Virus record (IMG/VR): IMGVR_UViG_3300047289_000040
Coordinates: 1 to 21,587 of that record
From: a virus
Length of the DNA: 21,587 nucleotides
Reading direction: 5' to 3' (one strand)
Part shown: positions 20,184 to 21,587 of the stretch, piece after piece
Numbering within the stretch: position 1 is the stretch's first letter
Layout: each line of letters begins with the position of its first letter
Program-made: the position numbers and the translations under genes
Notes under the pieces: generated by a model
Databases searched by the model: none
The model's input: only the letters and a program-made list of their open reading frames with translations
Told to the model about the DNA's origin: nothing

Positions 20184-20420
20184 ATGAATGATTGGGATCG
20201 AGATAATCTGGAGTTTCTGTTATCAGCCAACAAGCAAGTTCTTGATGACTGGTACAAGACTCTCACTCCCGATGACTTACTATACGCATTTGAACTCTTA
20301 TCGAAGCATCGTGACGAGTTGACTGAGCGTATCGAAGAATTAGAGTTAGCTGAGAAAGAGGAAGAAGGTTTCCCCGAAGCAGTTAGCGTGTTGGAAAAGT
20401 TTGTTACAGGAGAACGATAA
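20184..20420 (+). CDS. 78-aa acidic coiled-coil protein
   Basis: Small, highly acidic, helical protein (MNDWDRDNLEFLLSANKQVL, then ERIEELELAEKEEEGFPEAV). The middle (residues 40-60) has heptad spacing, so a short coiled coil is likely. Not recognised. Starts two bases after the previous stop and overlaps the secreted-protein gene by one base (TAATG). Confidence 0.72.
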   Translation: MNDWDRDNLEFLLSANKQVLDDWYKTLTPDDLLYAFELLSKHRDELTERIEELELAEKEEEGFPEAVSVLEKFVTGER

Positions 20421-20725
20421 TGAAGAAAGTTGTAGCAGGTCTAGTGGTAGCGTTATGTGCATCAACAGCAATGGCTGATGGTGGATATCGTGGTCATCAT
20501 GGTTACCATGGTGGTGGCGGTAATGTATTGATTCCAATGGTCATCGGCGGTATCGTCGGATACGGTGTGAGTCGTGCTCAGCAACCACAGGTGATTGTGC
20601 AACAACAGCCAGTGTATGTTCAACCACAGCCATATTACTCTCTGCCTCCACAACAAGTTTGTGAGTTGCGCAGCGAAGTGGTGAATGGTCAAATCATACA
20701 AGGCAACTTCTGTTACTACCGATGA
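20420..20725 (+). CDS. Secreted Gly/His/Gln-rich protein
   Basis: 101-aa protein with a clear Sec signal peptide: basic MKK, hydrophobic VVAGLVVALCASTAMA, predicted cleavage after AMA (about residue 19). The mature part starts with Gly/His-rich DGGYRGHHGYHGGGG, a glycine-zipper-like segment NVLIPMVIGGIVGYGVSRA (residues 35-53), then a Gln/Pro/Tyr-rich stretch, and ends with two Cys (C81, C97) that could form a disulphide. Resembles host outer-membrane or periplasmic glycine-zipper proteins rather than standard phage genes. Could alter the envelope or block superinfection; both are inference. GGAG lies 8-11 bases before the ATG. Confidence 0.8.
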   Translation: MKKVVAGLVVALCASTAMADGGYRGHHGYHGGGGNVLIPMVIGGIVGYGVSRAQQPQVIVQQQPVYVQPQPYYSLPPQQVCELRSEVVNGQIIQGNFCYYR

Positions 20726-21177
20726 AACAAAAATGGATTGAAGCATTCATGGACACAGCAGAGCGTTTTGCTCAGTTGAGTTCTGCGGTGCGATTGAAGG
20801 TTGGTGCTGTTGTCGTCAAAGACAATCGTATCATCTCTATTGGTTACAATGGTATGCCGTCTGGTTGGACCAATGTGTGTGAAGATGTCGTTGACGTCCC
20901 ACCCACTGATCCTCGCTATGACTACTATCACTTCAACAAAGAGTTGAAAACGAAAGACGAAGTGATCCATGCAGAAGCGAATGCGATTCTGAAACTTGCC
21001 AGAGATGGAGAGAGTGGATCGGGTGCTGATGTGTTTGTGACTCATGCTCCATGCATCAACTGTGCAAAGTTGATCTACGGTGCAGGGATACGAAACATCT
21101 ACTATCGTCATGCTTACAGGGATCGTGGAGGTCTTGACTTTCTCGAGAAGTGCGGTATACTAAGTGAACAAGTCTGA
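20722..21177 (+). CDS. dCMP deaminase
   Basis: 151-aa zinc enzyme making dUMP from dCMP, the substrate for ThyX. Zinc site: HAE at 83-85 (in VIHAEANAI) with E85 the proton shuttle, and PCxxC at 110-114 (APCINCAKL). GYNGMPSGW (41-49) and VRLKVGAVVVKDNRIIS (23-39) are typical of T4 Cd and related enzymes. Shorter than T4 Cd (193 aa). Coupled to the secreted-protein gene by ATGA. It closes the P6 operon, though no terminator is seen before promoter P7 begins at 21216. Confidence 0.93.
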   Translation: MKQKWIEAFMDTAERFAQLSSAVRLKVGAVVVKDNRIISIGYNGMPSGWTNVCEDVVDVPPTDPRYDYYHFNKELKTKDEVIHAEANAILKLARDGESGSGADVFVTHAPCINCAKLIYGAGIRNIYYRHAYRDRGGLDFLEKCGILSEQV

Positions 21178-21215: not shown

Positions 21216-21244
21216 TTGACTAAATAAATAACATGCGGTAGAAT
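21216..21244 (+). promoter_or_regulatory. Sigma70-type promoter P7
   Basis: -35 TTGACT (21216-21221, 5 of 6), 17-base spacer, -10 TAGAAT (21239-21244, 5 of 6). Start predicted near 21251. Directs the RNA candidate. Confidence 0.75.
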
Positions 21245-21276
21245 AGGTCTATCGCAAAAACTATCAAAGGCATTAA

Positions 21277-21426
21277 GTGATAACTCTCTTAAGATCATCG
21301 TCCAAACAGCATCAACCGTTGAATAACGGCTGGTCAAACACACGTAGTGTATTTACGTGCGTGATGGCGATTGAGGGATCTGGTTATGCGATTGATAGTT
21401 CTGAGGGTTTTGGTAAGATGAAGTAA
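21277..21426 (+). CDS. Possible leader peptide ORF (GTG start)
   Basis: In-frame from GTG 21277 to TAA 21426: 49 residues ending GYAIDSSEGFGKMK. AAAGG at 21266-21270 sits six bases before the GTG, a usable ribosome-binding site. The last third lies in the left arm (21403-21417) of the hairpin that competes with the terminator, so a translating ribosome would open it. There is no recognised domain and the ORF may be chance; an internal ATG at 21364 would give just 20 residues. Confidence 0.22.
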   Translation: MITLLRSSSKQHQPLNNGWSNTRSVFTCVMAIEGSGYAIDSSEGFGKMK

Positions 21427-21455
21427 CTGTATACAGTCTACTTACCCAAACCCTC
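21403..21455 (+). promoter_or_regulatory. Alternative hairpin competing with the terminator
   Basis: GAGGGTTT-T-GGTAAG (21403-21417) pairs with CTTACC-C-AAACCCTC (21441-21455), 14 pairs around one mismatch. Its right arm contains 8 of the 10 bases of the terminator's left arm (21448-21457), so only one of the two structures can form. A 12-base perfect palindrome, ACTGTATACAGT (21426-21437), sits in its loop. Confidence 0.65.
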
Positions 21456-21481
21456 GATGATGAAAGTCTCGAGGGTTTTTT
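21448..21481 (+). terminator. Strong intrinsic terminator
   Basis: Ten-pair stem AAACCCTCGA (21448-21457) / TCGAGGGTTT (21469-21478), 11-base loop, with six T at 21476-21481. Ends the P7 transcript just before promoter P8. Confidence 0.88.
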
Positions 21482-21493
21482 GTTTGTAAGGTG

Positions 21494-21522
21494 TTGACAT
21501 TTATTCGCTGTTGCGATAAGAT
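21494..21522 (+). promoter_or_regulatory. Sigma70-type promoter P8
   Basis: TTGACA (21494-21499), 17-base spacer beginning TTTATTCG, -10 TAAGAT (21517-21522, 4 of 6). Start near 21529, directed out of the window. The 12 bases TTGACATTTATT are identical to those in P4 and P6. Confidence 0.75.
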
Positions 21523-21587
21523 TCAATCCCTTCGTTGATGTGGTCTTTACTGCTCAACATACGATCTTTTAAAATTTAGTCCAATTG

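Follow-up and report, generated by a model that had tools for sequence, protein, structure and literature searches.

The right end of the window (by which we mean the whole viral stretch analysed, a record of 21.6 kb ending at position 21587) carries an RNA region that can fold in two incompatible ways. The question raised by this locus is what such a switch could sense and which genes it could control. The features needed to address it are the following:

20722–21177, plus strand: dCMP deaminase gene of a T4-like nucleotide-metabolism block (PHROG 174, E = 1.1e-52)
21216–21244, plus strand: promoter of the leader, sigma-70-like TTGACT-17-TAGAAT (10/12 match; +1 near 21251)
21266–21270, plus strand: Shine-Dalgarno-like AAAGG, 6 nt before the GTG (from the sequence)
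21277–21426, plus strand: leader ORF, GTG at 21277 to TAA at 21426, 49 aa, MITLLRSSSKQHQPLNNGWSNTRSVFTCVMAIEGSGYAIDSSEGFGKMK (homologous small ORFs in about 78 distinct leaders)
21403–21417, plus strand: 5' arm of the antiterminator, codons for EGFGK (GAG GGT TTT GGT AAG) (pairing, relatives)
21441–21455, plus strand: 3' arm of the antiterminator, overlapping the 5' arm of the terminator (pairing, relatives)
21448–21481, plus strand: intrinsic terminator, 10-bp stem 21448–21457/21469–21478 and T tract 21476–21481 (sequence, relatives)
21494–21522, plus strand: second promoter, TTGACA-17-TAAGAT, 3' of the terminator (class II layout; promoter match)
21563–21577, plus strand: boxA-like element GATCTTTTAAAATTT (from the sequence; directly before tRNA-Gln in relatives)

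Two competing hairpins and a leader ORF in the window

Both hairpins described by the first-pass annotation are present. The larger one joins 21403–21417 (GAGGGTTTTGGTAAG) to 21441–21455 (CTTACCCAAACCCTC) by 14 of 15 pairs; the terminator joins 21448–21457 (AAACCCTCGA) to 21469–21478 (TCGAGGGTTT) by 10 pairs and is followed by six Ts. They exclude each other as had been proposed, both stems using positions 21448–21455. A further nine-pair closure, of the 5' end on 21392–21400, is apparently specific to the window; in most homologues transcription starts at or beside the ATG. The 241-nt RNA has a folding energy of -71.8 against -56.2 kcal/mol (z = -3.6), better than 200 of 200 dinucleotide shuffles. 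The minus strand gives a larger z-score (-6.6) but was rejected as the functional strand, the ORF, the promoter and the T tract all being on the plus strand. No named RNA family had been recognised, and Rfam likewise returned no match by cmscan at the gathering threshold, the E-value mode giving three chance-level hits below gathering.

The region had been thought to accommodate no gene. This was wrong: it is occupied by the 49-codon leader ORF, whose final codons form the 5' arm of the alternative hairpin and which already encodes all 20 amino acids 5' of that arm. For the window alone this composition is not extreme, since 0.5% of the windows of its own proteins hold all 20 in 42 aa, and the case for a "pangram" leader therefore rests on relatives.

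On the other side of the terminator, the record ends ten bases past the boxA-like element. The tRNA array of the window is thus predicted rather than seen, because the contig stops short of the expected tRNA-Gln. We also observed, beside the dCMP deaminase gene (20420–20725), an ORF whose small product is rich in Gly, His and Gln and resembles a signal peptide at its start (MKKVVAGLVVALCASTAMADGG); similar ORFs (MKKIALSLMFLAVAGSATAHGYYRGG) lie 5' of the leader in 20 related loci.

Leaders before phage tRNA arrays

First homologues were taken from IMG/VR contigs, in the region downstream of the dCMP deaminase gene, and a pattern scan for the paired arms gave 108 contigs. The conserved part of the homologues is the open reading frame; the stretch 5' of the ORF end aligns poorly among relatives. 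In the IMG/VR relatives the module lies about 85–600 nt upstream of phage tRNA arrays, which comprise up to 31 tRNA genes and nearly always begin with tRNA-Gln(UUG). The distance from the end of the -10 box to the start codon is 6–7 nt in 61 of 86 relatives, so that the transcript is probably leaderless.

A second scan used boxA and tRNA-Gln as its only criterion, without regard to composition, and added leaders unlike the first set (e.g. MHLCHISYSVKFNGLNDQAIARTFSPEWSVRV and MQNISHFFKLSGATLWQVESRPCSINTSADYGTRWGFC). Grouped with phmmer, the 128 distinct leaders that contain 18 or more amino acids form nine families. The pangram property is shared by at least nine leader families that have no sequence relationship to one another. 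A pattern search of GTDB genomes gave eight stretches, while BLASTN of the region and tblastn of a family leader against annotated phages gave no significant match.

Could the ORF simply encode a small functional phage protein followed by an ordinary terminator, with no meaning in its composition or in the alternative hairpin? Recognisable peptide families conserved by descent, such as LPL..GW..RP..AIE, speak in its favour. But this explanation has to account for at least nine unrelated families with the same composition at the same position, and no convincing match of the leader peptides was found in Pfam or PHROG. Moreover, in some relatives the C-terminus is frameshifted (GLDKK, GLAST, VRVRQVN, GVLVSR) while the RNA arm is retained. 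We regard the small-protein explanation as very unlikely. The C-terminus of the leader is conserved as RNA and not as protein.

The layout is also found in cultured phages. KVP40 has a 37-aa leader (NC_005083, about 178804–178917, minus strand) with 19 of the 20 amino acids, 130 nt before 27 tRNAs. A leader of this type, either unannotated or labelled a hypothetical protein, is present in fifty Vibrio phage records, among them nt-1 and QD01 on V. natriegens; nine that we examined contain 18–20 amino acids, that of PVA8 all 20. Here too the terminator arm pairs with the stop-codon region, the layout being the same and the leader sequence unrelated. The Vibrio set is nevertheless weaker evidence than the main set, because at least 19 amino acids are reached in 37 aa by chance in about 2.5% of cases and because most of these phages are close relatives. 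As KVP40-type phages, including the Vibrio natriegens isolates, can be cultured, the system is testable now. The arrays of T4, T5, AM24, Aeh1, S-PM2, CbK, XacN1 and Aeromonas phage 65 showed no clear leader.

Between terminator and array, most intervals contain the boxA-like motif GTTCTTTAAAAATTT. When the intervals of at most 120 nt are considered, 27 of 73 have no convincing promoter and 46 have a good one, as does the window; read-through in the latter cases would therefore only supplement other transcription. A hairpin with a conserved loop, CATCGT or CATCGA, is found between the leader terminator and the first tRNA in 55 of 128 intervals (e.g. L033, L036 and L003), often just 5' of the boxA-like motif. 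Its stems vary but match (TAGC/GCTA, GGG/CCC, TGGC/GCCA, CTAC/GTAG, GGAG/CTCC), and hairpin and boxA are possibly a boxB/boxA antitermination element.

Two observations concern the arrays themselves. At L019 and L023 only 3–4 tRNAs follow and the leaders are not pangrams; leader breadth may correlate with array size. In the arrays of L132 (9715–9790), L095 (2827–2902) and L155 (1924–1998), ARAGORN finds tRNAs with a CTA anticodon ("tRNA-Pyl"), which are possible amber-suppressor tRNAs; in that of L178 it finds one with anticodon TTA.

Amino-acid content of the leaders and pairing of the arms

All 20 amino acids are encoded 5' of the arm (a part with a mean length of 35.7 residues) in 58 of 78 distinct family members, and at least 19 in all 78, with a small bias because the set was picked by the hairpin and a loose motif containing Pro and Trp/Tyr. 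Length-matched protein windows of the same phages contain on average 15.6 distinct amino acids, and 0.17% of them contain all 20. An unrestricted search for pangram ORFs of up to 56 aa was discarded: it gave many chance hits, and ORF length and position before the array were therefore restricted. With this restriction, the best small ORF at 159 distinct array starts has 20 of 20 in 106 cases and 19 or more in 146. On the antisense strand this procedure gave 20 in no case and 19 in 9; at 491 other places in the same contigs it gave 20 in no case and at least 19 in 2.5–8%.

The largest family (61 leaders with all 20) allows the content to be separated from the order. Shuffling within alignment columns brings the mean number of distinct amino acids down to 17.74 from 19.73 (no more than 18.07 in any of 2000 shuffles) and leaves at most 12 leaders with all 20. 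An amino acid lost at one position is thus regained at another. Only 4 of 54 columns of this alignment are conserved at 90% or more, and the other families have no motif in common with it. These last figures bear on whether the nascent chain itself stalls the ribosome, with or without a ligand. Leader peptides can indeed regulate through nascent-chain arrest of the TnaC type, but such poor conservation makes an arrest peptide extremely unlikely here.

The property is confined to the translated frame, with 19.6 distinct amino acids against 15.0–16.7 in the other five (the set having been filtered on frame 0). It extends to codons: leaders use 26.6 of 33 decoding classes, gene windows 18.9, and the same peptides with redrawn codons 24.7. 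A leader has about one ATA, one ATT, one AGA and one CGC codon, and three Ser codon classes are nearly always present; there is one each of D, Y, W, H, F and C, against several of Ser, Leu and Arg. Taken together, these comparisons indicate that selection acts on the amino-acid content of the leader, and does so in a single reading frame. Selection on a peptide for having every amino acid, and not for their order, is an unusual form of selection.

The proposal that the locus is a riboswitch or a regulatory small RNA of about 230 nt has to be judged against this result. The stable fold, the promoter and the terminator would suit an untranslated RNA. Selection on a translated frame would not, nor would the poor alignment 5' of the ORF end or the absence of an Rfam match; we see almost no chance that this explanation is correct.

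Both hairpins are conserved in about 70 distinct homologues and so are not chance structures. In 52 of these homologues 93.6% of antiterminator cells and 96.7% of terminator cells are paired. The mean energy is -22.8 kcal/mol for antiterminator hairpins and -18.1 kcal/mol for terminators. Synonymous recodings of the arm seldom fold as well (median 4%), which suggests that the arm codons are chosen for pairing.

The first-pass annotation had made compensatory changes in both hairpins the test of its proposal. Within the window family they are modest. Covariation in the antiterminator scores 0.068, a value matched by 1 of 500 shuffles, but a single pair is changed on both sides, which 273 of 500 shuffles equal or exceed; this modest signal is explained by the near invariance of the arms in this family. 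Covariation is clearer in the terminator (0 of 500 shuffles as high). The Gly wobble codon is perfectly associated with the 3' arm (GGA with TTTCCC/CTTCCC, 27/27; GGC with CTTACC, 16/16; GGT with TTACC types, 23/23); we did not count this link as compensatory pairing, as two of the three classes give mismatches.

Between unrelated families the compensation is clearer. In nine of nine families the 5' arm of the terminator pairs with the end of the ORF, about 3–21 nt before the end of the stop codon, and in all nine this pairing beats on average at least 97.5% of shuffles. Arms of the same family pair at -14.5 kcal/mol on average, against -11.0 kcal/mol for arms swapped between families, although one family, a singleton, gains almost nothing from having its own arms. 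In all families the 5' arm occupies the region expected to lie under a ribosome that has reached the stop codon.

A predicted attenuator and its known counterparts

The attenuator arrangement was the part of the earlier proposal that matters, and it was right. From the ORF, its composition, the competing hairpins and their place before tRNA arrays, we infer that the module is very probably a ribosome-mediated transcription attenuator and a near-universal amino-acid sensor. RNA polymerase would transcribe a leader of about 40 codons. With all tRNAs available, the ribosome would reach the stop codon and cover the last codons, i.e. the 5' arm; the 3' segment would then fold as the intrinsic terminator and the tRNA array would receive no read-through. 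If one aminoacyl-tRNA became scarce, the ribosome would stall at the matching codon and leave the 5' arm free to form the antiterminator with the 3' segment, and the polymerase would run on into the tRNA array, which can hold up to 31 genes. In this way the leader would act as a universal sensor of tRNA supply, driving the expression of replacement tRNAs.

The inputs would not be equivalent. With about 2 codons between it and the arm, Asp is geometrically the weakest input; Asp, and sometimes Glu and Tyr, are found within 4 codons, and a ribosome stalled at one of them might still cover the arm. Pairing of the arm with the upstream leader, as in a protector (1:2, trp-type) hairpin, was not above that of shuffles. 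Given this negative result for a protector hairpin, a leader that is not translated should likewise keep its 5' arm free and permit read-through.

This last prediction also suits a translation-coupled terminator that reports ribosome availability or initiation in general, read-through being then the response to an untranslated leader; that many leaders look leaderless is a further point for it. It would leave unexplained the presence of all 20 amino acids, the many isoacceptor codons and the compensation between positions, and we consider a general reporter of translation unlikely, if the least unlikely of the alternatives.

For the amino-acid sensor, the trigger would be a fall in host tRNAs caused by defence nucleases or by shut-off of the host. 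Cleavage or depletion of tRNAs is a host defence against which phage-encoded tRNAs act (PMC10264068; PMC11555353), and this gives a phage a reason to sense tRNA depletion. A more specific version, to which we give even chances, is that T4-like phages have repeatedly evolved a pan-amino-acid attenuator, each with an unrelated peptide, as an alarm for host tRNA destruction (anticodon nucleases, retron effectors, host shut-off), inducing a near-complete set of replacement tRNAs. A search of PMC10264068 and PMC11555353 by terms found no mention of attenuation or of a leader. In the open-access literature we found no description of tRNA-array attenuation.

Several known systems can be compared with this module. 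The attenuators of amino-acid operons in enterobacteria (trp, his, leu, ilv, thr, phe) have leaders in which codons for a single amino acid, or for a few, are repeated, and they control biosynthesis. The phage module resembles them in its short leader ORF, in a 5' arm lying under a ribosome at the stop codon, in an antiterminator overlapping the terminator and in a target that would relieve the shortage sensed. It differs in that its leader samples about 26 decoding classes and almost every one of the 20 amino acids, in that its target is a tRNA array and its genome that of a phage, and in that no protector hairpin was found; such a hairpin is not universal among attenuators. T-box riboswitches also sense tRNA charging and control termination, but they bind the tRNA directly, without translation, whereas the phage leader is an ORF and has no Rfam match. 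With the boxA/Nus antitermination of rRNA operons the module shares the boxA-like motif, which would act on the polymerase after the attenuator and not as a sensor. The breadth of the input and the tRNA-array target appear to be new, while the working logic would be that of a known ribosome-mediated attenuator. The attenuators described so far respond to one amino acid or to a few, and we know of no earlier universal sensor of tRNA supply of this kind; if the leaders do sense essentially all amino acids, they would be the first.
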